From: Polytrichum commune
Taxonomy: Eukaryota > Streptophyta > Polytrichopsida > Polytrichales > Polytrichaceae
Assembly: GCA_950295325.1 (NCBI GenBank)
Contig: OX485806.1
Coordinates: forward strand, 45,627,169-45,691,168
Direction: 5' to 3'
DNA length: 64,000 bases
Shown here: positions 8,163 through 45,650 of the stretch, piece after piece
How positions within the stretch are numbered: the first letter of the stretch is position 1
Layout: each line of letters begins with the position of its first letter
Notes under the pieces: model-generated
What the model saw: only the letters and a program-made list of their open reading frames with translations
The model's database searches: none
Told to the model about the DNA's origin: nothing
Position numbers and translations under genes: made by a program

Positions 8163-8366
8163 TTGGGCTTGGGTGGGCGTTATCGGCGGATGGGTAAGGG
8201 TCGGGTAGGTGTTGGGTGGGCGTTATCGGTGGATGGGCAAGGGTCAGGTGGGCGTTGGGTTAGTGTTGAATTAATGTTGGGTATGTGTTGGGTGTGTCTT
8301 GGGTGGTTGTTGGGTGGTTGTTGGGTTAGTGTTGGGTGGTTGTTGGGTTAGTGTTGGGTGAGTGTA
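8163..8366. repeat. GTTGGGT-type minisatellite, left of the large element
   Basis: Short units such as GTTGGGTTAGTGTTGGGTGG repeat irregularly. The same sequence class resumes at 27741, directly beyond the right end of the proposed 19.4-kb element. This suggests one minisatellite was the insertion target. Confidence 0.75.
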
Positions 8367-8402
8367 CAGGAATGCTACGATGTGAGCGGTGAGCAGATCT
8401 TG
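8367..8402 (+). repeat. Left terminal inverted repeat of the large element
   Basis: GCTACGATGTGAGC at 8374-8387 followed by GGTGAGCAGA matches, in inverted orientation, the sequence at 27697-27744. The first 20 bases pair with the right end at 15 positions under an ungapped comparison. Confidence 0.5.
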
Positions 8403-8589
8403 TGAGCCGAAAATCAAAATTTAAAACTCCATTTAACGAAAGGTAGGACCCCTATGACCGTGGGTTTTGCACATATTTCAAGTTTAATTTTGGAATTATG
8501 AGGCCAATATTTATGGAGTGCCTAATTTTTAGGACCAAAAGTTTATTAAAATTACCAACGAGTCCCTATGGCCGTGGGAAAATTCAGTG

Positions 8590-8950
8590 TGGTTGAGAAG
8601 ATGGTGGACCTATGGGAAGAGGCCTCGGATCCGAGGCCTCTTAGTTGTGGGTAGCTTATGCTTGAAAATCAAAATGTTATGTATATTTGAGTTGGCTACT
8701 TGTCTTTGCATTTTGCCATTTCTTGTATGTTCTAGCATGAGGAGGAGGTTTGGAAAAAGGCCTCGGATCCGAGGCCTCTTTTTTGTGGGTAGGATATGCT
8801 TGAGAAATCAAAATGTTATGTATATTTGAGTTGGCTACTTGTTTTTGCATTTGGCCATTTCTTGTATGTTCTAGCATGAGGAGGAGGTTTGGAAAGAGGC
8901 CTCGGATCCGAGGCCTCTTTTTTGTGGGTAGGATATGCTTGAGAAATCAA
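8590..8950. repeat. Three 139-bp tandem repeats with perfect palindromes
   Basis: The units contain GAGGCCTCGGATCCGAGGCC (centres at 8629/8630, 8767/8768 and 8906/8907), followed by a shared text with GGATATGCTTGAGAAATCAA and CTTGTATGTTCTAGCATGAG. The palindromes are perfect over 26, 20 and 28 bp. They lie about 250-550 bp inside the left end of the proposed element. Their core TCGGATCCGA is also the core of the satellite palindrome further right. Confidence 0.85.
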
Positions 8951-9127
8951 AATGTTAGGTGTATTTGGTTTGGCTACTTGTCTTTAGATTGTCTACTAGT
9001 TGACGACCACAAAAGTGTAGTGTTATTTGAGAACAATGACAAGATGCATTCAACAAGACAATTGGAATATTAAAAACCACACCACACTTTATAAATCCAA
9101 ATACCAATCAATCAAACCAAAAATCAA

Positions 9128-12100
9128 TCAACAATGAGGTTCCCTACTTCCAAAGATACTTCCCTCATGGCTGCCCTCATCTGAAGTGGAATCTAAGGTA
9201 TGGCATTCATTATCCACCTCTGCAAGAAGCTCGAAGAAGTCTAAGGCACGGGGGTCATAACGTGGAGACGGGGTACTAGCTTTGCTAGTAGAAGGTTGTG
9301 CCGCTAATACCATCGCCATATCATGGGCATAGATTGGCAAAGTGAATCCCTTGGTAGGCGTACCAAACACATCTGCTCCAAGGCCAAGTCTGAAAACAAG
9401 CATGAAAATTGTAAGAAAGAGGATGGAAAGTGTAAAAGCTGAGTGGACAAGGAAAAGAAGCAACTTAGAAGGTCATCATACTCACTTACTGCGAGGACTC
9501 TGGCCTCGATCGCTTCAAGGCCGGCGGCCTCTTCTGCGTGCCTTGTGAAGCCTGTGTGGAAGCAACAACAATGGATGGAGCCTTCACCGGATGCTTAACA
9601 CTCTGAAGTGGCTTAAGGACACGGTTGAAGATGTCCTCGTCCTCCTCGAGAGCAACGATATGGCGCCCAAGTTGCCTGCATGCATGGATAGAAGTCCTTG
9701 TTGCGGAGGAATGGTTAGCAAACATAAATAAAAGCAAAGGTAGAAAATGAAAACCAAGATATGATGGCAAGTGAAGTAGGACATACCAACGTCTGCATTA
9801 ACGTCAACCACGATCTGCCCAATGTCAGTAATTGTCATGATCAAGGAGGGCATGAAAGAAATATCTTTCTCACGGGGACCACACCAAGCTTTGGAGCCAT
9901 CCATGAGAGGGGTTGTGGTATAATTCATAATGGCATCATCCATGTCTAGCTCAATGCCAAGAGCCTTGAGCTCATTGGCATCGCGAAGGCGAAATGACGA
10001 GTGCGGGTCCGCTTATATAGGTCGGATCCAATTGTTTTCGTGGCACGAACAAGTAGCACAACTTGGAAGAGGTTAGTGGTCTTGTCCACATGTTTAGCTG
10101 AATGAAGGTGAAGACGGTTGACTCCCAGCCACTCCTTAAAGATGGTGAAGCCAAAAGCAGCGAAGTGGTCTTGAATGCTCTCCTTGAAGTCACCATTGTC
10201 ATCTGGATGAAAGAAGAGGAGAGCTCCATCATCATGCAGGATCTCATCCGCAAAATCGAAGAGCTCACCTAGAAAATCGGTATCCAATGCATTCCAGGAA
10301 GGTACACTATAGGAAGGATCGGAGACATTGGGTACAGGCAGGTTCTTAGGGATGTCGGCAATGACAAAATCAGCCATGCCCACATCTGACCTCGCAACGC
10401 CTAGAGCTCTCCGCGGATAGGAGGGTGGAAGAGAAAGAATGAAGTTGGAAACCTCCTAAAAATGACGACGTTGATGAAGGATAGAGGCATTCAAGATGCA
10501 TTCTAAAACAACGGGAAGACGCCTAGCAGATGAAAGAATGGGCGGAGGAGGCGGCCTGGATAGAGTAGGAACTTGACTAAGAGATGGAGTAGATGCCACA
10601 GCCGCCTCAGGTGAAGCAGGGGGAGGGGGATCATCCTCCACAGTCTTCAGCTTCTTCGCGCGTTTCTTCAGTGATGACTGGTCTTGGGTTGCACGCTTCC
10701 TCCTCTTGGACTTCTGTGTGGTGGCCTCATCGATAGTCGCAACTACCTCATCCGCCTCCGGAAGTTGACTGTCAAGGACAACAACCTCATCGCTTTGAGA
10801 AGGAGGCAGTGGAGGCTCTCCACCGGAGAGTCGAATCTTCAACTCCGCCTCCTCATCCGGTTGCCACGTCCTCTTACATTCCAAGTACCAGCAACACTCG
10901 CGGAGATGCGGGAGGGAGAAGTTGCGCTTTTGAGCCGGGGGAAAAATGAAAGTGGGCGAAGAGGAATCAAACCATGCGTCTAGAAATGGAGGGAGCTTCT
11001 TCAAAGCCTTCTTCTTGAAAAGCTCGTGCTTGATGTACCTTGACAACAAAGGAGTGAGGCCATTCAGCAACTTAGAAATAAAATGGTTTGAAATAAATGA
11101 AGACAAAAGATGTCCCAAGTAACTTACCGAAAAATTAAGCGCTTGACAATGTTGTTAGCGCCTTTGACATCCTTCCACCACGTCCCCTTTCCGTAGATAT
11201 CTGACCCAGAGAAGTGACCAATGAACGCCTTATCCCAAAGGCAGATTCGCCACTTCTCCAAGTAATCCGGCAACGAATCAACTTCCATGTCTCCATCAAG
11301 CCCACCCAATGCAGTAAGTATATCGGGTAACTCCTTGACCGCAACATACTCTAGCTGTGAACAAATTCGAGGCCAAATCAGATTTCACAAAAATTGAAGC
11401 TATATGGCCTCTTTTCAGACCCCTTACAGGCACGCTCAAATCCCAAAAATCTAAAATGTAAACCTACATGGCCTCAAATAAGACCCCTACCAAGCATACC
11501 CCTTGCGAGAATTCTCAAAAATCTAAACCTACATGGCCTCTAATCAGACCCCCAACAAGCATACCACTTCCAAGAATTATCAAAAATCTAAACCTACATA
11601 GCCTCAAATCAAAACCCTTACAAGCCAGCCTCAATCTTTGAAATAAAAAAATAAATATATATGGCCTTAAATCAGACCCCTTACAAGCATGCCCGAATCC
11701 AACAAATCACAAAATGTAAACATATGTGAGGACCCGAGTACTGAAACTAAGGGCCTGTCGGATCAGACACCCCCCCTTTGCCTCAAATCATAAATCAGAC
11801 CCCTAACAAGCCTCACCCTTCAAGGAATTCCCAAATATTAAAGCTATATGGCCTCTTTTCAGACCCCTTACAAGCCTGCCCCAATCTTAGAAAACAAAAA
11901 ATAAAGCTATATGGCCTATTTCAGACCCCTTACAAGCACACCCAAAACCCGAAAATAAAAAATCATACCCCATACGAGAATGTTTAAAAATCTAAAGCTA
12001 CATAACCTCAAATCAGACCCCTTACAAGCCTCCCCCAATCCTAGAAATCAAAAAACAAAGATATATGGTCTCTTTTCAAACCCCTCACAAGCATGCCCGA

Positions 12101-15100
12101 ATCCAACAAATTACAAAATGTAAACATATGTGAGGTCCCGAGTGCAGAATCTAAGGGCCTGTCGGATCCGACATACCCCTCCTTGCCTCAAATCACAAAT
12201 CACACCCCTTACAAGCCTGCCCCAATTTTAGAATTCAAAAATTAAAGGTATATGGCCACTTTTCAGACCCCTTACAAGCATGCCCCTTCAGAGAATTCTC
12301 AAATAATTAAGCTATATGGCCTCAAATCAGGACCCTTATAAGCCTGCCCCAATCTTAGAAAATAGAAAATAAAGCTATATGGCTTATTTTCAGACCCCTT
12401 ACAGGCACTCCCAAAACCCGAAAATCAAAAATCTAAACCTACATGGCCTCAAATCATACCCCCAACAAGCATACCCCTTACGAGAATGTTTAAAACTCTA
12501 AAGCTACATAACCTCAAATCAGACCCCTTACAAGCCTCCCCCAATCTTAGAAATAAAAAACTAAAGATATATGGCCTCAAATCAGACCCCTTAAGAGCAT
12601 GCCCGAATCCAACAAATTACAAAATGTAAACATATGTGAGGTCCCGAGTTAAGAACCTAAGGGCCTGTCGGATCCGACAAACCCCCCCCCCTTCCCTGAA
12701 ATCACAAATCACGCCCCTTACAAGCCTCACCCTTCAAAGAATTCCCAAATATTAAAGGTATATGGCCTCTTTTCAGACCCCTTACAAGCATGCCCCTTAA
12801 GAGAATTCTCAAATAATTAAGCTATATGGCCTTAAATCAGGACCCCTTATAAGCATGTACCAATCTTAAAAATCAAAACTAAAGATATATGGCCTCAAAT
12901 CAGACCCCTTAAGAGCATGCCCGAATCCAACAAATCACAAAATGTAAACATATGTGAGGACCCGAGTACTGAAACTAAGGTCCTGTCGGATCCAACATAC
13001 CCCCCCACCCTTGCCTCAAATCACAAATCACGCCCCTTACAAGCCTCACCCTTCAAAGAATTCTCAAATAATTAAGCTTGCCCCAATCTTAGAAATCAAA
13101 AAATAAAGCTATATGGCCACTTTTCAGACCCCTCACAAGCATGCCAAAATCCAACAAATTACAAAATGTAAACATTTGTGAGGTCCCGAGTTCAGAACCT
13201 AAGGGCCTGTCGGATCCGACATACCCCCCCCCCTTGCCCCAAATCACAAATCACACCCCTTACAAGCCTGCCCCAATCTTAGAAATCAGAAATTAAAGCT
13301 ATATGGCCTCTTTTCAAACCCATTACAAGCATGCCCCTTCAGAGAATTCTCAAATAATTAAGCTATATGGTCTCAAATAAGGACCCCTTATAAGCCTGCC
13401 CCAATCTTAGAAAATAAAAAATAAAGCTATATGGCTTATTTTCAGACCCCTTAAAGGCACTCCCAAAACCCGAAAATCACAAATCTAAACCTACATGGCC
13501 TCAAATCATACCCCCAACAAGCATACCCCTCATGAGAATGTTTAAAAAGCTAAAGCTACACAACCTCAAATCAGACCCCTTACAAGCATACCCCTTCAGA
13601 GAATTTTCAAATAATTTAGCTATATGGCCTGAAATCAGAACCCCTTATAAGCCTGCACCAATCTTAAAAATCAAAAACTAAAGATATATGGCCTCAAATC
13701 AGACCCCTTAAGAGCATGCCCGAATCCAACAAATTACAAAATGTAAACATATGCGAGGACCCGAGTACTGAAACTAAGCTTCTGTCGGATCCGACAAGCC
13801 CCCCCCCCCTTGCCTCAAATCTCAAATCACACCCTTTACAAAACTCACCCTTCAAAGAATTCCCAAATATTAAAGATATATGGCCTCAAATCATACCACT
13901 TATAACCCTGCCCCAATCTTAGAAAACAAAAAATAAAGCTATGTGGCCTCTTTTCAGACCCCTTACAATCATGCCATTTCAAAGAATTCCCAAATATTAA
14001 AGCTATGTGGCCTCTTTTCAGACCCCTCACAAGCATGCCATTTCTGAGAATTCTCCAATATTAAAGCTATATGGCCTCAAATCAGACCACTTACAAGCCT
14101 GCCCCCATCTTAGAAATCCAAAAATAAAGCTATATGGTCTTTTTTTAGACCCCTTACAAGCATGGCAAAATCCAACAAATTACAAAATTTAAACATATGT
14201 GAGGTCCCGAGTTCTGAATCCAATGGCCTGTCGGAACCGACATACCCCCCTTTGCCTCAAATGAGACCTAAATCAAGGCCAAGATAAGTAATGAAGAGTT
14301 GAAAGGTAAGTAAGGATAAGGAGGATAGACGTACCCCTGCCCAGAACGCTGCTTTATTGAGCCAATGTTTCAAGTTGTCCTCGCTTGCATGACTTTTGGG
14401 AAACCGGATAGCTTCACGATTGAATCTTCCACTGTTCCACCACTTTAGCCAACGAACTTTATACTCTGGCTCCACAGCAGCTGTAGCAATGAGTTGCAAT
14501 TTCTCCAATGTCATCTCAATCTTTTGAGAATGGTGGGCGCTATAATGCTTAATAACCTGAAACAAATGACATCAAAATTGAAGGCGGAGTAAATTTCATA
14601 ACTACTCAAGCAATGAATGCGAGCAATACCGAAGGTATAATTCCGAAGGTGGTGACAAAGAAATTACCTCCTCCAGGAACTCTTTTCCAAGGGCCGGGTT
14701 TGCAATTGATTGTTGCTTGTTAAACTTATGCCCAAGTTCCTCAGTCGTCTTCTTTATTACAACGTCCAATACATCACTCAACCCCTTCTCTGACTGCTCC
14801 TCTAGAGGCACGTCCTCCTTGTAGATTTGGGTAGCCTCATCTACCGCATCGGCTATCTCTTGCTGTACATATACTCTCAATTGTTATATCATGACTAAGA
14901 ATAATGAATGTGAAGGAGAAGGTTGAGGAATTTGGAGTGACTTACATTGAAAATGAAAGACACCATAAGATCCTGAGTCAGTGGGTACCAAGGGCTCTTG
15001 GGGCCTCTGCTCTTGCACGCTTGGAATTGCTCGTGGGTCAATAATGGCTGGTAGTAGCTAAGATCATACGAACCGTATTTTTGAATGCGGTGTAGAGTGT

Positions 15101-15946
15101 GTACGAGGCTAGTTTCAACGTGTGCGGTCTTGTTAGCCCTGTTGCGGTTGAGACAAATGCCATTAGATTCCAATCAAAAAATGAAGGAAAAATAGATTTG
15201 AAAAACTATCATACTTACTTGTTGATGTCGTGCATTGCGTTAAAGACATCTCCACGCCCACCCGTTGTATCGAAGACGACACATTCTGGGCAACCATGCT
15301 TCTCGTACCAGAGTGCATTGTCCTTGTGATCTGATTCGATGCACTCTTTCCACGCAAGCAAGCGGTGGTTACCATCATACACGAAGAACATACATCCACT
15401 GAGGCTCATCAAGTCCTTATCCGCGCGCAAAAGAGACTCAAACTTATCATTTTCTGCACACCAAAGCTCTTCCCATTCACGCATGTCTTTCGCAGAAATG
15501 AATCGATTTTCTCCAGACTCATTTGTAGTAGACACATACAAAGTGGCAGACCCAGCTCGGTATCCAAATTGAAAAGCCGCCATGAGCTTTGTAACGTCGT
15601 TGCGTAGGGTTGGACGAACCAATGGCATGTGAATCAACCTGCAGAGGAGGATTCTCATAGAGGACTTTTCTACCGGTTGTATCCTCATGCCCTCAACAAC
15701 TGAGAAACTATCTTTCTTTAAATTGTGGCGAATCCGATACTCCATTGCACGAACACCCACATCCGGCTCTGGAAGAGAGCCGCATAATGGCATCACTGGT
15801 GTATGCGGTTCGCTACTACCTGGTGTAAGAACACTATTTCCAGCATATGAGAATGAAGACCCTTGCTCCCTCTGTTCCTCCCCACTAAAAGATGACCCAC
15901 CGCCAATGGGAACCCCAACATCCAATAACTCTCCATCCGCATCCAT
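9128..15946 (-). CDS. ParB/Srx-like domain plus methyltransferase-like protein
   Basis: Ten exons can be joined mostly in frame: 15219-15946, 14946-15138, 14668-14862, 14335-14556, 11128-11354, 10513-11038, 10455 to about 10010, about 10005-9787, 9490-9675 and 9128-9389, about 1,060 residues in all. Exon 1 holds FVYDGNHRLLAW, the G-N-H-R signature of the ParB N-terminal/sulfiredoxin-like fold. Exons 5-6 lead into a Lys-rich, probably nuclear basic stretch (KSKRRKRA, KKRAKKLK) and Pro-rich linkers. Exon 7 looks like a Rossmann methyltransferase core: DFVIADIPKN, a Gly-Ala-Leu strand (GALLFFHPDD) and FQVVLLVRA. The DPPY-type motif is altered to DIPK, so catalysis is doubtful. Two junctions (exons 7/8 and 8/9) do not keep frame under simple GT..AG rules. 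The start ATG follows a good acceptor, so a 5' UTR exon lies upstream. Function unknown; a DNA-binding or DNA-modifying role is inference. Confidence 0.6.
11360..14280. repeat. Satellite array 1, inside intron 4 of the ParB-like gene
   Basis: Degenerate tandem copies of TATATGGCCTCAAATCAGAC, CCCTTACAAGCATGCC and related phrases fill the 2,980-bp intron between 11355 and 14334. The longer unit with AAGGGCCTGTCGGATCCGAC followed by a C run recurs about every 200-600 bp. It is the same family as array 2, read in the same direction. The open frames it contains are repeat read-through. Confidence 0.9.
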
Positions 15947-16504
15947 CTGAACGATCTGCTGAAACAGAGGAGAAGCAGTCAAAAAACTTGCAAACATGAA
16001 AACAGTCAAATCAGACCCCTAACAACCATACTCCACTCCGAGAATTCTCAAAAATTAAAGCTAGATGGCCTCATATCAGGCCCCTCACAAGCATGCCCGA
16101 ATCTAAAAAATCTAAAATCTAAACCTACATGGCCGCCAATTAGACCCCTAATAAACATACCCCACTCCGAGAATTCTCAAAAATTGAAGCTATATGGCCT
16201 TAAATTAAACCCCTTACAAGAGTGCCCGAATCCCATAAATCAAAAATCAAAGCTATATGGCATCAAATTGGACCCCTTACAAGCATGCCTCAATCCCACA
16301 AATCACAATCCTAAGCCTACATGGCCTCATATTAGGCCCCATAGAGGCACGGCCAAATCTCAAAAATGCACAAAATTATAACAAATGTGAGGTCCCGAGA
16401 TGTGAGCCCAAGGGCCTGTCGGATCCGACACCCCCCCCCCTTGCCTCAAATCAAACCTCTACCTACAAGACCCCAATCCTAAAATTCCCAAAATTTCAAC
16501 CTAA

Positions 16505-18500
16505 ATGGCCTCAAATCAGAGCCTTCATAAGCATACCCCACTACTTGAATTCATAAATCTAAACCTACATGGCATCTCACTAGGCCCCCCTCAGGCACTC
16601 CCCAATCTCAAAAATATGATATTTATACCAAATGTGAGGAGCCCTGTTCTGAACCAAAGGGCCTGTCGGGTCCGACACCCCCCCCCCTTGCCTCAAATCA
16701 AACCTCTACCTACAAGACCCCAAACCTAAAATTCCCAAAATTTCAACCTAAATGGCCTCAAATCAGAGCCTTCATAAGCATACCCCACTACTTGAATTCA
16801 TAAATCTAAACCTACATGGCATCTCACTAGGCCCCTCTCAGGCACTCCCCAATCTCAAAAATATGATATTTATACCAAATGTGAGGAGCCCTGTTATGAA
16901 CCAAAGGGCCTGTCGGGTCCGACACCCCCCCCCCTTGCCTCAAATCAAACCTCTACCTACAAGACCCCAATCCTAAAATTCCCAAAATTTCAACCTAAAT
17001 GGCCTCAAATCAGAGCCTTCATAAGCATACCCCACTACTTGAATTCATAAATCTAAACCTACATGGCATCTCACTAGGCCCCTCTCAGGCACTCCCCAAT
17101 CTCAAAAATATGATATTTATACCAAATGTGAGGAGCCCTGTTCTGAACCCAAGGGCCTGTCGGGTCCGACCCCCCCCCCTTGCCTCAAATCAGACCTCTA
17201 CCTACAAGACCCCAAACCTAAAATTCCCAAAATTTCAACCTAAATGGCCTCAAATCAGAGCCTTCATAAGCATACCCCACTACTTGAATTCATAAATCTA
17301 AACCTACATGGCATCTCACTAGGCCCCTCTCAGGCACTCCCCAATCTCAAAAATATGATATTTATACCAAATGTGAGGAGCCCTGTTATGAACCAAAGGG
17401 CCTGTCGGGTCCGACACCCCCCCCCCTTGCCTCAAATCAAACCTCTACCTACAAGACCCCAATCCTAAAATTCCCAAAATTTCAACCTAAATGGCCTCAA
17501 ATCAGAGCCTTCATAAGCATACCCCACTACTTGAATTCATAAATCTAAACCTACATGGCATCTCACTAGGCCCCTCTCAGGCACTCCCCAATCTCAAAAA
17601 TATGATATTTATACCAAATGTGAGGAGCCCTGTTCTGAACCCAAGGGCCTGTCGGGTCCGACCCCCCCCCTTGCCTCAAATCAGACCTCTACCTACAAGA
17701 CCCCAAACCTAAAATTCCCAAATTTTCAACCTAAATGGCCTCAAATCAGAGCCTTCATAAGCATACCCCACTACTTGAATTCATAAATCTAAACCTACAT
17801 GGCATCTTACTAGGCCCCCCTCAGGCACTCCCCAATCTCAAAAATATGATATTTATACCAAATGTGAGGAGCCCTGTTCTGAACCAAAGGGCCTGTCGGG
17901 TCCGACACCCCCCCCTTGCCTCAAATCAAACCTCTACCTACAAGACCCCAATCCTAAAATTCCCAAATTTTCAACCTAAATGGCCTCAAATCAGAGCCTT
18001 CATAAGCATACCCCACTACTTGAATTCATAAATCTAAACCTACATGGCATCTCACTAGGCCCCTCTTAGGCACTCCCCAATCTCAAAAATATGATATTTA
18101 TACCAAATGTGAGGAGCCCTGTTCTGAACCAAAGGGCCTGTCGGGTCCGACACCCCCCCCCTTGCCTCAAATCAAACCTCTACCTACAAGACCCCAATCC
18201 TAAAATTCCCAAATTTTCAACCTAAATGGCCTCAAATCAGAGCCTTCATAAGCATACCCCACTACTTGAATTCATAAATCTAAACCTACATGGCATCTCA
18301 CTAGGCCCCTCTCAGGCACTCCCCAATCTCAAAAATATGATATTTATACCAAATGTGAGGAGCCCTGTTCTGAACCAAAGGGTCTGTCGGGTCCGACACC
18401 CCCCCCCCCTTGCCTCAAATCAGACCTCTACCTACAAGACCACAATCCTAAAATTCCCAAATTTTCAACCTAAATGGCCTCAAATCAGACCCTTCACAAG
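16505..18500. repeat. Sub-array of eight ~247-bp higher-order units
   Basis: Unit starts are at 16505, 16752, 16999, 17244, 17491, 17735, 17980 and 18226, so the period is 244-247 bp and copies are nearly identical. Each unit is two protomers (64 + 63 bp) plus a ~120-bp block with AAAGGGCCTGTCGGGTCCGA and a C run. Period differences come mainly from the length of the C run. Confidence 0.92.
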
Positions 18501-21320
18501 CATACCCCACTACTTGAAATCAACAAACTAATCCTACATGGCCTCTTATTAGCCCCTGTCAAGCATGTCCAAATCAAAATATTTTCAAAAATCAAAGTTA
18601 ATTGACCTCAAATCAGACCCCTCACATGCATTGCCACCTACCTGAAATCAACAAACTAACCCTACATGGCCTCTTATTAGCCCCTTCCAAGCATCACCAA
18701 ATCAAAATATTCTCAAAAATCAAACATAAATGGCCTCAAATCAGACCTCTTACAACCATACCCCACTACCTGAAATCAACAAACTAATCCTACATGGCCT
18801 CTTATTAGCCCCTGTCAAGCATGTCCAAATCAAAATGTTCTCAAAAATCAAAGCTAATTGACCTCAAATCAGACCCCTCACATGCATTGCCACCTACCTG
18901 AAATCAACAAACTAACCCTACATGGCCTCTTATTAGCCCCTGTCAAGCATGACCAAATCCAAATATTCTCAAAACTCAAAGCTAAATGGCCTCAAATCAG
19001 ACCCCCCACATGCATTCCCCCCTACCTAAAATCAACAAACTATGCCTACATGGCCTCTTATTAGCCCCTTTCAAGCATGACTAAATCCAAATATTATCAA
19101 AAATCAAAACCAAATGGCCTCAAATCAGACCCCTCACATGCATGCCTCAATCGCACAAGTCACAGATTAAACCTACATTGCCGCTTATTAGGCCCCTCTC
19201 AGGTACTCCCCACTCCCAAAATTTTGAAATTCATACCAATTGTGAGGTCCCCAGTTTGGAACATAAGGGCCTGTCGGATCCGACACCCCCCCCCTCACCT
19301 CAAATCATACCTCTACCTACAAGACCCCAATCCTAAAATTCCCAACATTTCAACCTAAATGGCCTCAACTCAGACCCTTCACAAGCATACCCCACTACCT
19401 GAAATCAACAAACTAACCCTACATGGCCTCTTATTAACCCCTCTCAAGCATGTCCAAATCAAAATATTCTCAAAAATCAAACATAAATGGCCTCAAATCA
19501 GACCTCTTACAACCATACCCCACTACCTGAAATCAACAAACTAATCCTACATGGCCTCTTATTAGCCCCTGTCAAGCATGACCAAATCCAAATATTCTCA
19601 AAAATCAAAGCTAAATGGCCTCAAATTAGACCCCTCACATGCATTCCCCCCTACCAAAAATCAACAAACTAAGCCTACATGGCCTCTTATTAGCCCCTTT
19701 CAAGCATGACTAAATCCAAATATTCTCAAAAATCAAAACCAAATGGCCTCAAATCAGACCCCTCACATGCATGCCTCAATCGCACAAGTCACAGATTAAA
19801 CCTACATTGCCGCTTATTAGGCCCCTCTCAGGTACTCCCCACTCCCAAAAATTTGAAATTCATACCAATTGTGAGGTCCCCAATTTGGAACATAAGGGCA
19901 TGTCGGATCCGACACCCCCCCCCCTCGCCTCAAATCAGACCTCTACCTACAAGACCCCAATCCTAAAATTCCCAACATTTCAACCTAAATGGCCTCAACT
20001 CAGACCCTTCACAAGCATACCCCACTACCTGAAATCAACAAACTAACCCTACATGGCCTCTTATTAGCCCCTGTCAAGCATGTCCAAATCAAAATATTCT
20101 CAAAAAACAAAGCTAATTGACCTCAAATCAGACCCCTCACATGCATTGCCCCCTACCTGAAATCAACAAACTAAGCCTACATGGCCTCTTATTAGCCCCT
20201 TTCAAGCATGACCAAATCCAAATATTCTCAAAAATCAAAACCAAATGGGCTCAAATCAGACCCCTCACATGCATGCCTCAATCGCACAAGTCACAGTCTA
20301 AACCTACATTGCCGCTTATTAAGCCCCTCTCAGGTACTCCCCACTCCCAAAAACCTGAAATTCATACCAAATGTGAGGTCCCCAGTTTGGAACCGAAGGG
20401 CCTGTCGGATCCGACACCCCCCCCCCTCGCCTCACATCAAACCTCTACCTACAAGACCCCAATCCTAGAATTCCCAACATTTCAACCTAAATGGCCTCTT
20501 ATTAGCCCCTTTCAAGCATGTCCAAATCCAAATATTCTCAAAAATCCAAGCTAAATGGCCTCAAATCATACCCCTCACATGCATTCCCCCCTACCTGAAA
20601 TCAACAAACTAAGCCTACATGGCCTCTCATTAGCCCCTTTCAAGCATCACCAAATCAAACTATTCTCAAAAATCAAACATAAATGGCCTCAAATCAGACC
20701 TCTTACAACCATACCCCACTACCTAAAATCAACAAACTAACCCTACATGGCCTCTTATTAGCCCCTTTCAAGCATGTCCAAATCCAAATATTCTCAAAAA
20801 TCCAAGCTAAATGGCCTCAAATCATACCCCTCACATGCATTCCCCCCTACCTGAAATCAACAAACTAAGCCTACATGGCCTCTCATTAGCCCCTTTCAAG
20901 CATCACCAAATCAAACTATTCTCAAAAATCAAACATAAATGGCCTCAAATCAGACCTCTTACAACCATACCCCACTACCTGAAATCAACAAACTAACCCT
21001 ACATGGCCTCTTATTAGCCCCTTTCAAGCATGTCCAAATCCAAATATTCTCAAAAATCCAAGCTAAATGGCCTCAAATCATACCCCTCACATGCATTCCC
21101 CCCTACCTGAAATCAACAAACTAAGCCTACATGGCCTCTCATTAGCCCCTTTCAAGCATCACCAAATCAAACTATTCTCAAAAATCAAACATAAATGGCC
21201 TCAAATCAGACCTCTTACAACCATACCCCACTACCTGAAATCAACAAACTAATCCTACATGGCCTCTTATTAGCCCCTTTCAAGCATGACTAAATCCAAA
21301 TATTCTCAAAAATCAAAACC
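18470..21320. repeat. Sub-array of 128-bp dimers and 256-bp tetramers
   Basis: Two 64-bp protomers (GGCCTCAAATCAGA- type and GGCCTCTTATTAGC- type) alternate, giving a 128-bp period, seen cleanly at 20555, 20683, 20811, 20939 and 21067. Between 20555 and 21250 the 256-bp tetramer is repeated with almost no change, which indicates recent amplification. Interspersed copies carry the palindrome and C run. Confidence 0.88.
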
Positions 21321-21934
21321 AAATGGCCTCAAATCAGACCCCTCACATGCATGCCTCAATCGCACAAGTCACAGACTAAACCTACATTGCCGCTTATTGG
21401 GCCCCTCTTAGGTACTCCCCACTCCCAAAAACCTGAAATTCATACCAAATGTGAGGTCCCCAGTTTGGAACCCAAGGGCCTGTCGGATCCGACACCCCCC
21501 CCCTCGCCTCAAATCAGACCTCTACCTACAAGACCCCAATCCTAAAATTCCCAAAATTTCAACCTTTATGGCCTCTAATCAGACCCCTCACAAGCATACC
21601 CCACTATCTGAAATCAAACATGTAAACCTACATGGCCTCTTTTCGGACCCCTTTCAACTATACCCTAATCCAACATTTCACAAAAATCTTATATATATTG
21701 CGTTAAATCAGACCCCTTTCAAGCATGCCTCAATCCCACAAGTCACAAACTAAACCTACATTGCCTCTTATTAGGCCCCTCTCAGGCACGACCCAATTCC
21801 ATAAATCTGAAAATTATAACAAATGTGAGGTCCCAAGTTATGGACCCAAGGGCATGTCGGATCTGACATACCCCCCCTTGCCTCAAATCAGACCCCTAAC
21901 TACCATGCCGCTCTCCCAGAAGTTGAGAATCTAG

Positions 21935-23470
21935 CAATTAGCAAACAAAAACATCATATTAAACCTCTATCATGATAACCCCAAGACCAGAAAGCAAAAA
22001 AATAGGCCTTTGCGAGGTTCTGAAGCTGGCTCACAATTGTCTCTCACCTCAGACCTCTCCACAGGGCGACCACTGCCCTTCCCTCCAGTCACTCCCCCTC
22101 TCCAAATCGTGGCTGCAACCCTGTGCGCTGAGTGAATTCCTTGTATGCGGTGCAAGACCCTAGTTCTGATTTCCGTTGTAATTCGGTGGACGACGGTATG
22201 TTACTGCTGTGGCAGTCTTGTTCCCTTCCGACTAGCTCATTGTGACCACCCGTTGGATGGTGAGTTCTTTTACGGGCCCACTCTTGCTGCCTTCTCTATC
22301 TCACAAAGACAACCCCTAAATTCTAGTGCATATATGTATACATCGACTTGAGGTCCATACCTGTGTCTCGGAAATTCTCGATAGTTCATGTGATATTTGG
22401 ACCTCCACTTTTCTGGTCGTACCCACTCCAGCTTCCCTCCTAGCTATGTCTTCACCACGATTACTCTTCTTGTCATAATTCTAGACCTTGATCGTGTGCG
22501 GTTTGGGGAGAATTCCAATGCCTTGACTGTGATGTTTAAGCCATCATATTGTTGTTTTTGTTGTCTCATCCTAGAAACCCTTATTTGTTTCCTGCTTGAG
22601 AAAAGTGCCTTCCTCCTCCTCTTTGCCTTTGGTTTCACTAACTCTAGCGGCGAAGACCCTGTCATGTAACTGAATCCACTTCGCAAATTCTACACTACCC
22701 TCCTTTGTGAACATCGCTATATCAATGTATGTGTCTCGCCTGGATTACATCTACACTAATATTCCATCTCATAATCTCCTTCCCATAATGTCGATGTATT
22801 TTGATTACAATCTAATTGCTATATACATATAAGGAATCATCGAAAGGAACACTTATAGAATGAACACAAATGTTTAATAACATTTATTGAAATAATCCAG
22901 TGCAAATCTAAATATGAGGAGCATCATGCGTTATAAAAATACATATTTTATTACAAATGATAATACATAATTCAAGCTAAACAACAAGAAATAAATAATT
23001 TGTATAGCCATAAATTGACGAGACTCTTCCCACTAAACTAACCTATTCTTGCTTCTCCTTAAATTTGAATGCTCTGCCCTTTCCCATTTGAAGCCTCCAC
23101 TAAAAAATTAACACTTTCCTTTAGGGTGTCCCTTACATCCACTAAATGGTTCACGTGGTCTCTGGTGTATTTATAATTACGGCACTCGGCATTCAGCCTC
23201 ATGTTTGTTCTTAATATATCTACATTGGATTGGCATTTGTTCATGACTAACTTAAGTAATTGTTGCATTGCATTTTCAGTTCTTAATCATGTTGCTATCA
23301 TGAGTCCGCTTATTATTCCACTACTAATCCAAGTCTGCGCCGTCTTTCATAGATTCCATCTTGCCATGACCTTCTAACCACATCACTATATACACCGCCC
23401 CACTTTCTACTCAACTTAAGTCCATTGCCCATTTGGCCACTCCCTTCTGTGTACTTGCATTTACATTCCT
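21935..23470. other. Central spacer between the two divergent genes of the element
   Basis: No recognisable gene. The stretch should contain the start regions of the leftward ParB-like gene and the rightward transposase, but I cannot point to a promoter motif. A minus-strand open frame at 23059-23268 (69 residues, including YKYTRDHVNHLVDVRDTLKE) has protein-like composition and could be a small exon. Confidence 0.35.
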
Positions 23471-23476
23471 TCTACA

Positions 23477-26400
23477 ATGGCCACCATCCGAGCACTGCAC
23501 CATTCCATCCCCCTTATGATCCCTCTTGGAGATGATGGTCTAGCCAAAGTCGCGGAGTCGTTCCTTAGTCTGAGGTTTAGATTCCACCCAGACTCAATTC
23601 ATGTCGAGGAAGAGGTCTTTGATGACAACGGTGACTTGAGTCACACTGTCCTTCAGATGTCCTTTCGCATTGACGATGGTAGGGTTTGGTTCTTTCTCCC
23701 TGCAAAGTACAAGGCCATAGGTGTCACTGAGTCGGAAATGGCCACCACTACTGTGTTGCTAACACCAGGCGTGTCCCTCACGTCCACCACGCAGGCTCCT
23801 CTTCTGGCGACGGTCAAAAAGGAGCCCGGCATCCAAGAGGTTACCTTGCTCAGTGATGACTCTGATGATATGTGCCACCTGCCTATGACTTTGCCTCACT
23901 TAACCCACCTCCATCGCAGGATCAGCCCTTCATCAATCCTCTCAGGATTCCACACTCGCCTACTGTGAGTCAACCACCTACTTCCAGACCCCCAGTTCAC
24001 CCAGGTGTCTCCATAGATCGTCCCAGTGTTGTCCAGCAATTGAAGTTGCTTGCAACCCGACCAGGGTCCAAGAACATCCTCAAGAGTATTGATTATGAAT
24101 CTGTTAGGCATGAGAAGGTTGACTTCCTCCCATCTGTTTTTGACGGCGACGTCATCTTTGAGTTCCCTCCTCTGGGAGCTCATGCTCCCCATTCCCATGC
24201 TAGACTCATGTTCGGAATGGACAAGCGTTTCGACGGTTATGCTTGGTGTAGGACAAAGACGTCTAACATTACCAATGATCTCGGCTTGACCTTCTGGTTT
24301 TCATGTTGTGTTGGCCATCTCTGCTATCATAACGAGGGATGTGATTATCTCAACCGCCCCAATTGAGCCATTGACGTCAACAAGACCGAATGGGAAGGTT
24401 GTACCGCCTCACCCTTCACCGCAGATGCTGATCCCCCAGCTGGGTCATCTCTCGTTTGTAAGGTCTGTAAAACACCACCCTATTGTCTTGATACTTGCCA
24501 GGCTAAGATGTACAATGTTCTTGGCAGAGGTGACATGACCCGTGCATGCATCCATATGGGTCATCACCATCACCCTGTTTCGCAAGGTGTCTGTAGAGAG
24601 TCTAAGGTCAAAATTCATGATCTCATTGGTAGAGAGGTTGAGAGGACTCCCACCGCCACCAACTCTGCCATTGCATTGGCTACTAGTAAAGAGTTCCTGG
24701 CCAAGTATCTTCTACGCACGGGATATGATCCCAATAAAGTTATGGACCTGGAGTCCATGAAGTTTGTCATGGACATGTACCAACACCTCAGCACCCAGAG
24801 TATTCGAAACACTATCACTTCCTTCAAGCGCATTGGGCGAGGGGGGATCATTGACAGCATCACCGGACTCAGAGGTCATAGCAGTTGGCCCTATGTGCAA
24901 GAAAACAAATTCCCAGGCCAAGGAAAATTGTTGGAGAAAGTCTATGTGTTCAAGATGTCCGAGGTGGGCCCTGGGTCTGGAGTTGACCTTGTCAGGAGAA
25001 TGCAACCACACGGTGATTTGCAGGATGCTTGGGTCATGTTTGACCATGTCAAACGTGTCAAGGGGTGGACAACCATGGCTTGCCATGTCTATGACTCGGC
25101 CTACTGCCGGGTTATGACTATTGCAGTATGTGATATGCAGTCTGAGGATGTCACGGCGCAGAGCCTTCTTTGGCATGGGCTCAATGAAGTTATGCTCAGA
25201 CATGGCATTGCTAAAGTTAACTTCAAAGGGTTCATGGCGGACAGTGCACAGGCCAATTGGAATGCAGTTAGGATTATCTATGGCAGCGGTGATCCCAAGG
25301 TTCCTATGGAGTCTCGCGAGAGGACATGTCTATTGCATTGGACAGTGTCTATGGAGCGCCACACCGCCACCCACATCAAGCCCGACCTCCAACAACAACA
25401 CAAGTTGTTATGCAAGCAGTACAAGGATGCCAAGACTCCCGAGCAGTCCGAGTCCCGTTATCTTGCCATCCGGGCATGGTGGCTTTCCTCTGGAGCTGCA
25501 TCCGAGGAAGGAATCAAGGACCTTGATACATGGCTTGCATTCTGGCATTTTCGTTACCGTCAATGGGGTGGTTTCATGCAACTAATGAGTACCCACCGAC
25601 TTTCTATTTCATTTTTTGGGGTCAACTTTTTTTTTGGTTTTTTTTGGTTTTTTGGTGTCAGTTTTGGCTTTTAGCGTGTTTTTGTGCAAAGCGTATTCAC
25701 TACATTTTATTGACTTCTCTCAGAATTTCACAGATTCTGAGTTGGCAGAGATGCCATCTTGCAACCTCTCTGAGACAGTCCATAACAAATGGCTTCAGCA
25801 GTCTGGAAACCGTGGCTCTGATCTATATGTTGCGACCGTGGATGATTTTGTGAGGGCGTTCATGCAATGTGCAAACTACTACGCCTACTTGAAGGGTGAA
25901 CGGTCTGGCACTGGCCTAGGAAAAGAAGAACTCCGCCTTCGTGCTGCACAACGATCCGGTGACGCCAAGAGAATTGTACGTTGCAGCCCTCAAGCACATG
26001 CCTGGAGCAGAGCATTGGTGCACCCGCAAACCCCAACTCGAAGGAGAGGAGGTCTTTGGCACCACCAAGCGCAAACTTGATATACCCCCTGGTTCTGAGC
26101 AGGATTCACATAGACCCGACAAGGTCAGCTTCTCTCATCCACGAGTGAGCACTAGGTCAACCAAGGCACGCACTGATTCCGCCACACCATCAAACCTGCC
26201 CCTAACACAATCCCCCGAGAAATCGATTCCACAACGGGTCACCCACGTCAATAACATTCAGGAGACCCACTGCGATGTCTCCGAGTGGCACATTTCTAGA
26301 CTGCCCAAGACTTCCGCCAAGGCTTGCTTCGCCATGCAAGCTCGCACAAAGACCAAGTGCACCCAGAAGATCGTTCGGCATGGTAAAAGTACTCCAGCTC

Positions 26401-27137
26401 CTACGTACACCGGCTACATGCGCGACTACAAGAAGAACAAGGAATTATTGACACAGTTCTTCTTCTGCAACGACGACATTGAGAGATGTGTCAAAAGCAC
26501 TAGGAGGAAGTGGGTGCAGCACCGTCCGGATGTCCCGGACGTCTGGCCTGTCCTCACTGGGACAAACCTCACTCTCCAAGAGGTTTTGGCCCTTGAAGAA
26601 GGGGGATTCCAACTTCAGCAGCGTCAAGATGTGTCACCCGGAAGACTCTTCGGCGACTCCTCCAATGTTGCTTCATCCATGGCCGAACTCCCTACCCCGG
26701 CCCAAGCCGATCAATACCCTACGCTGAGGTTTGGAAAAAAGATCCGACGCAGTAACAACGGACCATGCGTCCAACAACGCAACAAGTGGGAGTCAGCCCT
26801 CAACGTCGACGGTCAAATCACCTCCGTCACAATGATACCTCACCCAGGGATCGGGTGCATCATTCTGTTCCAATCCCGAAAGAAGGCTTAGGTTGAAGAG
26901 TACCGTATCACTATCAGCACCTTCCCGTCGTGCACGTGCCTGGATTTCGTGGAGATGTCAGCAAGAGCACTTGGGAAGCGGCGCCCTTGGGTGAACTGCA
27001 AGCACTTGTACTTCATCTTCCGTGTGACCTGCAACTTGGATCAATACCAAGACACTTTCATCCATGCTCCGAGCCTTAGTTTCAATGAAGTGAAGCACAT
27101 CCTCGAAAGTGGCATCATGAAGCATGTGGGACCTTAG
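23477..27137 (+). pseudogene. Mutator-like transposase (zinc-binding, MULE core, SWIM finger), decayed
   Basis: Reading rightward: an acidic N-terminal region from 23477; a C/H-rich module (YAWCRTKTSN, then FWFSCCVGHLCYHNEGCDYL) of WRKY-GCM1 type; a CxxC/CxxxC module near 24460; a MULE-like core with FMADSAQANWNAVR and ERTCLLHWT; an AIRAWWLSSGAASEEG segment; and a SWIM finger (CTCLDF ... WVNCKHLY) near 26935-27010. An intron at 25589-25723 joins in frame. Lesions: a frame change near 23870, TGA at 24364-24366, a frame change near 25950, and TAG at 26889-26891. Both stops fit C-to-T change of CGA and CAG. Such proteins cut and join transposon ends in the nucleus. This copy could not make a full-length protein. 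It lies 600 bp from the right end, pointing to it. Confidence 0.8.
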
Positions 27138-27696
27138 CGTGGATACCTATAGGAGCTAGGCTGCCCCCCCTTATTTATAAGTTGTCGCTAAGTATTATTG
27201 CGTTGAGTATACTATAGTATGAGTGCACATTTTCCGAAAATATCGTTGATATATCAGACCTATCATTATCTACATGATGTAAATTGTATTTGTTTTTAAA
27301 TATCTATAAAGGTTTCTAAATATTTATGGGTCTCTCCTTCCAACAGTAGTTTTAGATGTTATTGAATGGTACGAGTTTTGCTACTTTGCTTGAATGCTTG
27401 AATGCTTGAATTTTTTGACTTAGAATTTTCTCTTACGTTGTGACCATAGCCTATGATTAACCGGCTCTCACCATAATATGGACAGTCAAAAGTTCCCTGG
27501 TTTAAGTAAATCATGTCAACTAGTCTCTCTGAAAGGTACCCTAAAACCAAGTCTCTGTCCTGAAAGCCCTCAAAATTTGCACGGAAATAGGTCCATCATT
27601 GTTACTAAAAAAAGAGGCCCCACGATTTTTTCTATTTATTTTTTCTAAAATTGGAAATTTTATTACTATAATTGGAAAGCGTTGACTTTTTTTCTG
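27138..27696. other. 3' flank of the transposase
   Basis: AT-rich sequence with no gene that I recognise; it leads to the right terminal repeat of the proposed element. Confidence 0.4.
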
Positions 27697-27744
27697 CTCA
27701 CCGCTCACCGCTCCCGTCCCAGCGCTCACACGGTAGCGTCGTTG
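27697..27744 (-). repeat. Right terminal inverted repeat of the large element
   Basis: CTGCTCACCGCTCACCGCTC, then CCGTCCCAGCGCTCACACGG and TAGCGTCGTTG. The reverse complement parallels the left end but has extra GAGCGG-type units inserted between GTGTGAGCG and GGTGAGCAGA. Confidence 0.5.
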
Positions 27745-27872
27745 GGTGAGTGTAGGGTGAGTGTTGGATTAGTGTTGGGTGGGTGTTGGGTTAGTGATTA
27801 AGGTTGGTGTTCGGTGGGCGTCTTCGATCATGGATTAGTGTCGGGTGGATGTTGGGTGGGATTGTATTAATT
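27741..27872. repeat. GTTGGGT-type minisatellite, right of the large element
   Basis: GTTGGGTGAGTGTAGGGTGA and similar units continue the sequence class of 8163-8366. The first bases match the left flank over 14 bp. Confidence 0.7.
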
Positions 27873-38836: not shown

Positions 38837-41103
38837 TCATTTAGTTGTATAATTCATGATGGATGTGTCGGGAAGGATACCCAACCTTTTCCACTGCCAC
38901 TCCTTGGGGTCCCATTCCATATCACTAATCCATTTATTTCCACATAGCCAGTGCGATTGTTCCGGTTCGGAGTCCTCTTGCGGGTTGTAATCCAAGACCA
39001 TTCTCTTAGGGCCCCCACATCGGAGTACACGAACCTCCTCCATCGGTTCATCTGGCAGAAGTTTATTCAGTTCCCTAAGGTGAAGTAGTTCGGTTTTGTC
39101 CTTCTGATATCTCTTGGCCTCTAAGGGTGTTATGCTATGAAAATGGTAGACCGTTGAGATGGTCCCGTCTTCTTCCTTACTAGCGATCCATTGGCCAATG
39201 CTGGGTGTTGGTCTGGGGCAGGCATCCCAGGGGATGCTGTTTACAACTCGAGCATACAACAGTGGGGCGACGCTGGTTCTTCGGAGGCGGAGCAGCTCTG
39301 CAAAAGTTTTCCAGCCATAGCCGTCGGTTCTTGTGATGTCTTTGAGTGATCCAAACTGTTTCTTTGACCACCATCTCATATTGGATCGGGGCTCTGTACC
39401 CCATTGGGTGCCTACTTCGCTAGTTAGGAATCGATTTCCAAATAATGGTTGTCTAATAATTTCCGACCAGCTTGTTGGATCCTGTTGTTCCAGGCTAGCT
39501 TGAATCGTGCTCCATGCTCGCATGACCCCTTGCCACATGGTTGAGCCTTGCTTTACTAAGTTGGGCGAGTTCATTATCCAATTAGCATGGGCGGGCCAGC
39601 GTCCTCTTCTGGACTGTTTGGTTTGGGCCACCATGTGTCTTACTAACGTTTTCCATGGTTCATATCCTACAGATAATCCCTGGATGAGGAGTTTCACGAG
39701 GAGGACTGAGGCTTGCCATTCCCGGTCCAGGATCTTCACTCCTCCTCGCACAATTGGTAAGACCACAGTGGTCCACTTGACCCTAGCCCTTGCGCGTGAT
39801 TCTCTCTTGCCAGACCACATATAGTTCCTAACTGTGGCCCTTGCAAGTTTCAGGGATTTTCCGGAGAATTCAGTACAGGAGGCAAGATACCAAATAGACG
39901 AAAGCACTACCTGGTTGGAGACCATGATTATTCCTGCCAGGGAGAGTTTGTTGTTGGACCATCGGAGAAGATGCTTTCGAATTTGTCCGAGCATCCTGCC
40001 ATCTTTCTCCTTTTGGGGGATGTTAATGCCAAATGGATAGCCCAAATACCTGGTAACTTCTCCTTCTCCTAGCCATTTGAGACCGGCTTCCTCCCCCCAT
40101 TGCCAGTTCCTTTCCATAGTTGATAGCCAAAGTCCAATTGATTTATGCAAGTTGAGTTTCGCCCCCGATGTTGCTCCGAATCGATGTATTACATTGAGGG
40201 CTATGTCTAGATTTTCCCGGGTACCATCTAAGAGTAGCAAGGTATCATCCGCAAACATTTGATTAGTGATTGTTGTCTTGTCAGGTAGCCGAAGGCCTTT
40301 TACTCGGCATCCCGGGTGTTGAAGCATTTGTCCAAGCACGTCTACTGTGAGGAGAAACAAATATGGGGCTAGCGGACAGCCCTGGCCTACGGAGCGTTGA
40401 AGGTTGAATGTCTTCGATGTCTGTCCATTGACAATGACCAATGCTGATGCGTTCTCGTTGAGAGTCATCACTTGGTTAATCCACGTTTTGTGAAATCCCA
40501 TCCTCTCCATTGCGTGGCGCAGGAAAGTCCAATTCACCCTATCATATGTTTTTTCGAAGTCTAATAATAACATGCTGAGTTCTTGGTGGTTTTCCTTTGT
40601 CCATTCAATGGCCTCAAAGGCCAAGAATATGTTACCTAGTATGCAACAGTTCAGGACGAAACCTGTTTGAGAGGGTAATATCCAGTTATGCAATAGAGGT
40701 TTCATTCTATTGGCATAAACCTTAGCAACTATTTTATATAGTGTGTTAAGGAGGGAGATTGGTCGGTAATTCTGTATGCGGAGTCTATCTTCTGATTTCG
40801 GTAATAAGGCTATTTTGCTAATATTAAGTTCTGCAATGAGTGAGCATTGGCTGATTACCTCAGAGACAAAGTTGAAGATATCAAATTCGATATCTTCCCA
40901 CATCTCCTGGTAAAACTCCGCAGGTATGAGTCCACACCTGGTGACTTCCCTGCGGGAAGTTGTTTCATAGCGTCAGCCATTTCCTCCATGGTTATGGGTC
41001 AGAGCAGTTCCGCATTGTGCTCCTCCGTTACTGTTTGTTTGAGGTATTGAAAACACTCCCTTGCCATTGTGTTAGCTTCCACCTCTTCGTCCCTGGTGTT
41101 TAA
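38837..41103 (-). pseudogene. LINE reverse transcriptase (ORF2 central part)
   Basis: A 688-residue frame (38837-40903) carries RIQNYRPISLLNTLYKIVAK, MLLLDFEKTYDRVNW, GQGCPLAPYLFLL and the catalytic FADDT, diagnostic of non-LTR reverse transcriptase. One base is missing just upstream (near 40925, in the codons for VDS..PAEFYQEMW). The preceding frame has TGA at 40999-41001 and TAG at 41104-41106. It would copy element RNA at a nicked target; this copy is defective. Confidence 0.9.
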
Positions 41104-41106
41104 CTA

Positions 41107-45228: not shown

Positions 45229-45618
45229 CTAACTTCCAGGATTCAAGCTAGTCTTATCAAGTAGCATCATCATCACTACTGTTTTGTACAGAAGCACTAG
45301 GCTGCATAAAAGTTGAGAATGACTTCCAGAGCCGCGATTGAAATGAGCTTCCTTCTGCATTAGTGGCAAATTTGGAGATGAATTCCACAGGGATAGCAGC
45401 AGACAAGTCAAGTTTCTTCAATCTTACTGTTCCCTGAATTCGCTCTGGAAGTTCTTCCTCTGCCCATCCTTCAATAAGGAAAGCCATGTCAACAGTGAGG
45501 GAAGTGACGTAGCCGATGGCAACATGCACAATTGCATTGGCTACAATTGAGGAACCAATATCCACATCAGCCTCAAGGAAGTTGGTTCCTTGTGAGTACC
45601 TGCAATTATGAGGTGTGG

Positions 45619-45650
45619 ATACACTATAAGGAAATGGGTGTTGAAATGAC
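45619..45650 (+). repeat. Left end of the large CACTA element with ATA duplication
   Basis: ATA (45619-45621) precedes CACTATAAGGAAATGGGTGT. The right end, read on the minus strand from 60652, is CACTACAAGGAAATGGGTGT, and ATA follows at 60653-60655. Confidence 0.9.

Follow-up and report, generated by a model that had tools for sequence, protein, structure and literature searches.

What is a gene that joins a ParB/sulfiredoxin (Srx)-like domain to a DNA-methyltransferase-like domain doing in a moss, and does it belong to the host or to a mobile element? The gene lies on the minus strand (15946 to 9128) of a 64,000-nucleotide stretch of Polytrichum commune (contig OX485806.1, positions 45,627,169 to 45,691,168), hereafter the window, and a preceding sequence-only reading had taken it for a prokaryote-type protein, domesticated or mobile, carried by a plant transposon. 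The mobile version of this proposal is borne out by the match of the predicted fold, the matches of the methyltransferase part, phage proteins with the same domain order and target-site duplications (TSDs). The gene sits in a mobile element, its two domains are under selection, and tied to that element are arrays of inverted repeats whose core is constant and whose arms change. This combination is suggestive, not yet proof, of an element that binds and marks its own DNA.

A large transposon family with recent copies

Inverted ends and TSDs in four copies identify the element as a cut-and-paste DNA transposon. These relatives, fetched from the plant's own genome, are 16,166-17,134 bp long, have inverted ends that are similar by eye and are each flanked by a perfect 10-bp TSD (CTTACGAAAG, AGGTCCAAGG, ATGGTCACGC and GAGCCATTCT). 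All ten exon-piece queries, which cover the linker in part, are collinear in the four copies, and the aligned pieces are stop-free in three of them, the copy c6 having one stop in exon 2. Long collinear pieces, including part of the internal array, are 97.8-99.7% identical (four of the six copy pairs compared), and the relatives have moved recently. Having been chosen for equal exon-1 scores, these near-identical copies are a non-random sample of the family; all copies were located via exon 1 and represent elements that carry the gene.

In the window copy, which the gene layout shared with the relatives places at 8363-27740, a terminal motif (GTGAGCGGTGAGCAGA) is inverted at both ends with 16/16 matching bases, a score reached in 0 of 1968 random placements, and the terminal ends differ from those of the four relatives. 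The candidate duplication GTTGGGTGAG has the 10-bp TSD length, and 1 of 100 shuffles had as many copies; since it sits inside a GTTGGGT array, the TSD evidence for this copy is only moderate. By BLAST, the GTTGGGT-type array occurs on both sides of the element and nowhere else in the window, which fits an element that jumped into such an array. A separate inverted-repeat element of ~100 bp (window 47019-47125) shares the terminal motif TGTGAGCGGAGAGCGGAG with the 19-kb element and is possibly a miniature inverted-repeat transposable element mobilised by the same transposase.

A transposase-like gene running opposite to the ParB-methyltransferase gene occurs in the relatives too. The divergent transposase-like gene of the window is interrupted by an in-frame TGA (24364-24366) and by other breaks; c1, one of the four relatives, is uninterrupted at that place. 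Pfam gave no match for this gene, either as the broken window gene or as the c1 protein, the MULE profile included, and the 10-bp TSD and SWIM-like C-terminus are no more than suggestive of the Mutator-like (MULE) superfamily.

A search of the plant's genome (408 Mb, 64 contigs) with exon 1 gave 1,126 candidates, 150 of which were scored, and led to at least 151 matches. Full or nearly full-length rows number 43, namely the window and 42 others at 79-86% identity, some of them with stops. The remainder comprises shorter or broken matches and two diverged groups, a small one at 52-56% and a large one at 37-43%, many members of the latter being free of internal stops. Several matches of this last subfamily have identical E-values (e.g., six at 2.1e-33), a sign that this more distant subfamily may recently have expanded in a burst. 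Among 5.8 billion proteins, exon 1 has 64 relatives and the methyltransferase part 34; none of either set carries a precomputed Pfam domain, and several methyltransferase relatives read through the sites at which the window copy is broken. The spliced window protein as a full-length query found no relatives in the protein search, the exon-level queries being the ones that succeeded. Viral origin was rejected, as exon 1 and the alignment A1 found no relative in viral contigs; A1 likewise found none in contigs of prokaryote genomes.

The gene and its two domains

On re-check, the position, the strand and all quoted motifs of the sequence-only reading were correct. Its GT-AG joins with open frame hold for exons 1-5 and the start of exon 6; its exons 6, 7 and 8, on the other hand, are a single 1,238-bp exon in c1, and the c1 gene consequently has eight exons instead of ten. 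This relative, the one of the four that was spliced in full, encodes 1,096 amino acids (aa) with GT-AG at all junctions. The motifs DFVIADIPKN, GALLFFHPDD and FQVVLLVRA share one open frame (10455-10014). The window copy is interrupted by an in-frame TAG (10458-10456), its frame changes near 10014-10009, and no way of joining exon 8 to exon 9 in frame was found, so this is probably a decayed copy. Exon 1 contains FVYDGNHRLLAW, and an upstream exon is possible because an acceptor-like AG stands just before its ATG. Ratios of nonsynonymous to synonymous substitution (dN/dS) between the window copy and c1, compared outside the linker and last exon, are 0.09-0.30 in seven of nine segments, which partly overlap, the ParB domain having 0.17 and the methyltransferase core 0.18; the values are higher in exon 9 (0.66) and in the first 60 residues, which are variable (0.60). 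Given the low dN/dS in seven of the nine segments and the relatives found, the gene signal is, by sequence comparison, far beyond chance.

Table 1. Features of the transposon and its genes in the window (reader's exons are those of the sequence-only reading).
Feature	Position	Strand	Remarks
Candidate TSD GTTGGGTGAG, left	8353..8362	+	Two exact copies in the 64-kb window, one per flank
Whole transposon	8363..27740		19,378 bp, older and partly broken; inverted terminal motif, candidate TSD, GTTGGGT array at either flank
Left terminal inverted repeat region GCTACGATGTGAGCGGTGAGCAGA	8374..8397	+	Last 16 bases match the right end inverted, 16/16
Three AGGCCTCGGATCCGAGGCCT-type palindromes	8617..8920		Within a tandem repeat of 139 bp; same palindrome type as in the 40% copy L030
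Last exon	9128..9389	-	Reaches the region of the stop
Reader's exon 9	9490..9674	-	Region following motif I, QLGRHIVALEEDEDIF
Exon 6 of the c1 model (reader's exons 6-8)	9787..11038	-	Linker and methyltransferase core; TAG and frame change; motif IV ADIPKN, motif I VVVDVNADVG in the window copy
Exon 5	11128..11354	-	GT-AG join, match in relatives
Intron 4	11355..14334	-	~64-bp tandem array, seven palindrome sites, of which four are exact and three singly substituted
Exon 4	14335..14556	-	GT-AG join, match in relatives
Exon 3	14668..14862	-	GT-AG join, match in relatives
Exon 2	14946..15138	-	GT-AG join, match in relatives
Exon 1	15219..15946	-	Predicted ParB/sulfiredoxin-fold domain, DGNHRLLA motif
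Tandem arrays (64/128/247 bp) between both genes	16385..21868		14 further anchored palindrome sites: exact TGTCGGATCCGACA (five), TGTCGGGTCCGAC[AC] (eight), substituted (one)
Divergent transposase-like gene	23477..27137	+	By eye, a DDE-like region and, at the C-terminus, a SWIM-like CxC...CxH
Right terminal inverted repeat region	27693..27737	-	Inverted match to the left end
Candidate TSD GTTGGGTGAG, right	27741..27750	+	Pairs with the left copy

The later exons encode a permuted N4/N6 (beta-class) DNA-methyltransferase fold of the PF01555 type. In the spliced c1 protein, the METHYLTRANSFERASE domain matches PF01555 with E 2.1e-5 and 25.0 bits, the cut-off of 26.7 not being reached, and it is the only Pfam family found up to E 10, DUF1985 and DUF287 being absent. 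Spliced P0083 gave 22.1 bits, again under the cut-off, and matched DpnA (5hek, E 8.3e-6) and CcrM (3e-4) in the PDB; sequence searches of the PDB with exon 7 or the profile A3 gave nothing credible. The motif order of c1 is permuted, with a IV-like ADLPEN followed by the S-adenosylmethionine (SAM) motif I (VVVDINAGVG). A search of 50,697 phage records with the c1 domain, matching 135 of them at E up to 10, led to the adenine methyltransferase of Streptococcus phage Javan244 (E 3e-4), with 98% of the query aligned (residues 2-226 of 230), and more weakly to a phage protein annotated as ParB-like (E 0.06). By hhalign, A5 against a phage methyltransferase was weak (probability 13, E 0.0021). Both phage matches that we examined closely (Javan244, QBX25231.1; NatCom_3357, XTK82159.1) are fusions of ParB_N and N6_N4_Mtase and have the domain order of the moss protein. 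They differ from it in length (413-415 aa), in an intact DPPY and in a detectable PF02195, which in the second falls just short of the cut-off; in the plant protein, several hundred extra residues separate the domains, and the ParB part shows no detectable sequence similarity to that of the phage fusion (XTK82159.1 only).

The phage DPPY aligns with DLPE of the plant protein, in which motif IV is of the D-x-P-E type instead of the catalytic [DNS]PP[YFW]. Across 33 aligned rows the fourth residue is E in 28, K in two, D in two and N in one, and it is never aromatic. As to motif I, 11 of the 33 rows have VVVDVNAGVG, the remaining variants including VVVDVTAGTG; the pattern was not found in 12 rows, most of which end or are cut upstream of it. 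Because dN/dS is low in the methyltransferase core, the altered motif IV looks as if it had been kept by selection rather than decayed, and in view of its D-x-P-E form an altered or inactive fold is more likely than an ordinary N6-methyladenine (6mA) or N4-methylcytosine (4mC) enzyme.

Exon 1 was proposed to encode a ParB/Srx-type domain, and this holds in terms of predicted fold and motif, sequence profiles lending it no support. The predicted structure of the domain matches the ParB/Srx fold (AlphaFold, Foldseek), and the nucleotide-binding-type signature DG-x-HR (G-x-x-R type) is present in 51 of 65 rows; the other 14 comprise ten without residues at that place, one cut short and three altered. 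The ParB/Srx assignment is therefore a model-based one, carried by that fold and that motif. Pfam indicated CB_ParB_C in two of the 65 members of the exon-1 family (best E 0.12), a Pfam search with single exons of the window gene gave nothing useful, and a PDB sequence search with exon 1 gave nothing credible.

Inverted-repeat arrays tied to the element

The window contains 12 TCGGATCCGA and 21 TCGGNNCCGA, all of them within the element, the 44,631 bp outside it being free of both. Anchored by upstream context alone, the 21 TGTCGG-type sites comprise nine exact TGTCGGATCCGACA, eight TGTCGGGTCCGAC[AC] and four with one substitution, which in one case alters the central pair. A separate set is formed by the three AGGCC-type sites at the left end. 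The 139-bp repeat in which they lie (window 8613-8985) bears the palindrome type of L030, so that the window element may be chimeric or contain a fragment nested within it. Each of the four c1-type copies contains 16-23 TCGGATCCGA, mainly as CTGTCGGATCCGACAG; in c1 the sites lie in a 170-bp array (L011) whose repeat unit looks unlike that of the window. Eight further pieces upstream of exon-1 matches, hand-chosen across the similarity range with one from an equal-scoring set, contain 12, 49, 16, 15, 7, 0, 0 and 2 TCGGNNCCGA. Altogether, at least two TCGGNNCCGA are present in 11 of the 13 copies examined, mostly as tandem arrays.

The arms change with the subfamily. They are GGTGGTGG/CCACCACC in the copies at 55% and 52% and AAGAGGCC/GGCCTCTT at 40%, followed by GGTGTC/GACAACC (43%), GGTGTG/GACACC (42%) and GTGTT/AACAC (37%); in these last three subfamilies the two central bases are unpaired and the arms partly imperfect. 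The flanks of the four copies (133,276 bp of control DNA) hold no TCGGATCCGA and one TCGGNNCCGA. In all 177,907 bp of control DNA the exact core TCGGATCCGA does not occur, the chance expectation of TCGGNNCCGA being ~1.4 there and 0.05 per 6.2-kb piece. Genome-wide, the one palindrome type that was counted, TGTCGGATCCGACA, occurs 658 times, compared with 0 for the reversed control and 1.5 expected. The TGTCGGATCCGACA sites listed, 50 in number, are the first ones along contig C1 and thus a non-random set; 45 of them have a listed exon-1 match no more than 10 kb away, as compared with 0.8% of random positions.

Two palindromes of other kinds were also seen. The 6.2 kb upstream of one 38% copy (L035) contain no TCGGNNCCGA and a single perfect palindrome of 54 bp, and a different 24-bp palindrome, GGGCGCTGTCCCGGGACAGCGCCC, found at position 6179 of L029, in the flanks of c1 and c4 and within c7, probably represents another repeat family.

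Function, rival explanations and known systems

The reading that we favour, with a probability of roughly 55%, is that the gene is an accessory gene of a large family of plant DNA transposons, whose protein would bind the element's own arrays and counteract host silencing. The protein would recognise the core-TCGGNNCCGA repeats as ParB binds parS, load onto the element and then spread across it, loading and spreading being the natural model for a ParB fold. The methyltransferase-like domain would bind SAM and DNA at the element and alter its chromatin state, most likely to counter silencing, as VANC does for the VANDAL elements of Arabidopsis. A bolder version, which we put forward tentatively and at somewhat less than even odds, is a eukaryotic, ParB-parS-like transposon weapon: each subfamily's protein would have co-evolved with its own arrays (core TCGG-NN-CCGA, changing arms) and would load and spread on its own kind only, the methyltransferase fold without catalytic aromatic residue serving as a SAM/DNA-binding module or as a new enzyme. 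Like bacterial ParB-parS, the system combines a ParB-type fold (here predicted) with multiple palindromic sites on the encoding replicon or element; we take the core TCGGNNCCGA to differ from the parS sequence.

VANDAL elements of Arabidopsis are Mutator-like, and VANC proteins contain DUF1985 and DUF287; we know of no ParB or methyltransferase domain in them. According to the available parts of two reports (PMC5735166, PMC10398659), sequence-specific binding by VANC removes silencing at VANDAL elements. The likeness to the present case lies in a transposon accessory gene and in element-specific short motifs, placed in noncoding tandem repeats, in introns of the accessory gene and upstream of the transposase, and differing among related elements. 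On the other hand, the VANC motif YAGTATTAY as described there is no long palindrome, unlike the arrays here, and VANC binding and demethylation have been demonstrated, whereas the moss protein is known from its sequence. Since the arrangement of the arrays matches VANC/VANDAL and motif IV is altered, anti-silencing is, by analogy, more likely than self-methylation.

Several results weigh against the favoured reading. A PF02195 hit was expected by the sequence-only reading, which had named its absence beforehand as a refuting result, and none of the 65 exon-1 sequences matched this family even at E<=1. No Foldseek match of the exon-1 model reached E 0.001, and one of the five AlphaFold models of the domain was confident, with a mean predicted local distance difference test score (pLDDT) of 81.4 vs 45.7-54.7 for the others. 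Comparison of the ParB profile with the phage ParB-methyltransferase by hhalign (XTK82159.1 only) gave a probability of 0.3, and the model of the methyltransferase part, with a mean pLDDT of 37.4, was not used. As for the arrays, two of the eight upstream pieces are without TCGGNNCCGA (one being mostly masked) and one has two only, no perfect palindrome of at least 14 bp was found in L031, L032 and L033, and the remaining five of the 50 listed TGTCGGATCCGACA sites are clustered together at 36-44 kb from the nearest listed exon-1 match. Finally, the binder of the arrays could be the transposase, which is the main rival.

This rival takes the arrays for transposase binding sites, or cis sites for transposition, the ParB-methyltransferase protein acting elsewhere. 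Plant transposases do bind repeated element-internal motifs, En/Spm being the precedent, and an array between two divergent genes suits both genes equally. However, the arrays are central instead of subterminal, they lie in the window also within intron 4 of the ParB-methyltransferase gene, and their core is common to the window and c1 although the two transposases share 49-70% identity in four main pieces (35% at the N-terminus) as opposed to 84-96% in the ParB-methyltransferase exon pieces; we consider this explanation unlikely. Less likely still is an active 6mA/4mC methyltransferase that modifies the palindromes (TCGG..CCGA or the internal GGATCC/GATC) and labels the element as self. Its methyltransferase fold, its SAM motif I and the purifying selection on its core would suit such an enzyme, every GGATCC in the four c1-type copies lies within a palindrome core (20/20 in c1), and binding and modifying of its own transposon is proposed for an Ectocarpus protein in the available part of PMC12477816. 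Against it stand the fourth position of motif IV, at which phage enzymes have the aromatic residue of DPPY (0/33 rows here, with E in 28), and the two central bases, which differ between subfamilies, so that GGATCC is no common target.

It is very improbable, in our view, that the ParB-methyltransferase part is a captured passenger without a role in the life of the transposon. Transposons do capture genes, both genes are broken in the window copy, and gene-less elements would have escaped a search that found all copies via exon 1; nevertheless, exon-1 frames are intact in the diverged subfamilies at 52-56% and 37-43%, and dN/dS between the window copy and c1 is 0.17-0.18 in both domains. The last alternative, a domesticated single-copy host gene near transposon debris, would agree with a spliced and conserved plant gene and is refuted for the family by its copy number (at least 151 exon-1 matches) and by precise element ends with TSDs.

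As to novelty, the sequence-only reading knew of no plant transposon with this pairing, and we also found no report of it in land plants, or of the arrays, in the literature searched, which covered few subscription papers. The pairing as such is known from brown, green and red algal transposons, and the kind of gene is thus not new. The available part of PMC12477816 describes Sola1-1_Ec32 of Ectocarpus, a 21.5-kb Sola-1 element in which a 1,104-aa ParB-like and N4mC/6mA methyltransferase protein lies opposite the transposase, and refers to similar proteins in green and red algal transposons (citing Iyer 2011 and Petroll 2025). Compared by description only, that protein and ours agree in both domains, in length (1,096 aa in c1), in lying on the strand opposite the transposase and in the size of the element (here 16.2-19.4 kb). 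They differ in host and superfamily, a brown alga and Sola-1 as opposed to a plant element with 10-bp TSDs, a SWIM-like transposase and a degenerate motif IV; inverted-repeat arrays are present here and find no mention in the available part of that report. Novel features of the present case are its plant host, its degenerate motif IV and its arrays. Other bacterial-type amino-methyltransferases in eukaryotes are the bdelloid N4CMT and the 4mC methyltransferase of Marchantia (PMC8885841), which the available part of that source does not describe as transposon genes; the rotifer enzyme also contains a chromodomain, and that of Marchantia has no additional domain.

The element bears on the question of how large DNA transposons can survive in silenced plant genomes. 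With it, the ParB-methyltransferase accessory genes known from algae reach a plant and gain candidate DNA sites, and, if the bolder version proposed above is true, it would represent a second, independent plant origin of VANC-like, sequence-specific anti-silencing, assembled from phage-like parts. With the protein, its probable sites and recent copies together in one element, binding, spreading and effects on methylation are directly testable, and the constant core with subfamily-specific arms offers a natural series of protein-site pairs.

Two Pfam families matched elsewhere in the window, EDR2_C and DUF4218, are plant families and support a plant host. Elsewhere in the window, all on the minus strand, are CACTA-type transposon genes at 47642-49629 (DUF4218, E 3.7e-30; DUF4216, E 7.8e-4, under cut-off), a LINE-like retrotransposon at 38840-42231 (RVT_1, E 3.1e-31, in the 38840-40972 frame) and an exon of an EDR2-like host gene at 45260-45649 (EDR2_C, E 4.1e-23).

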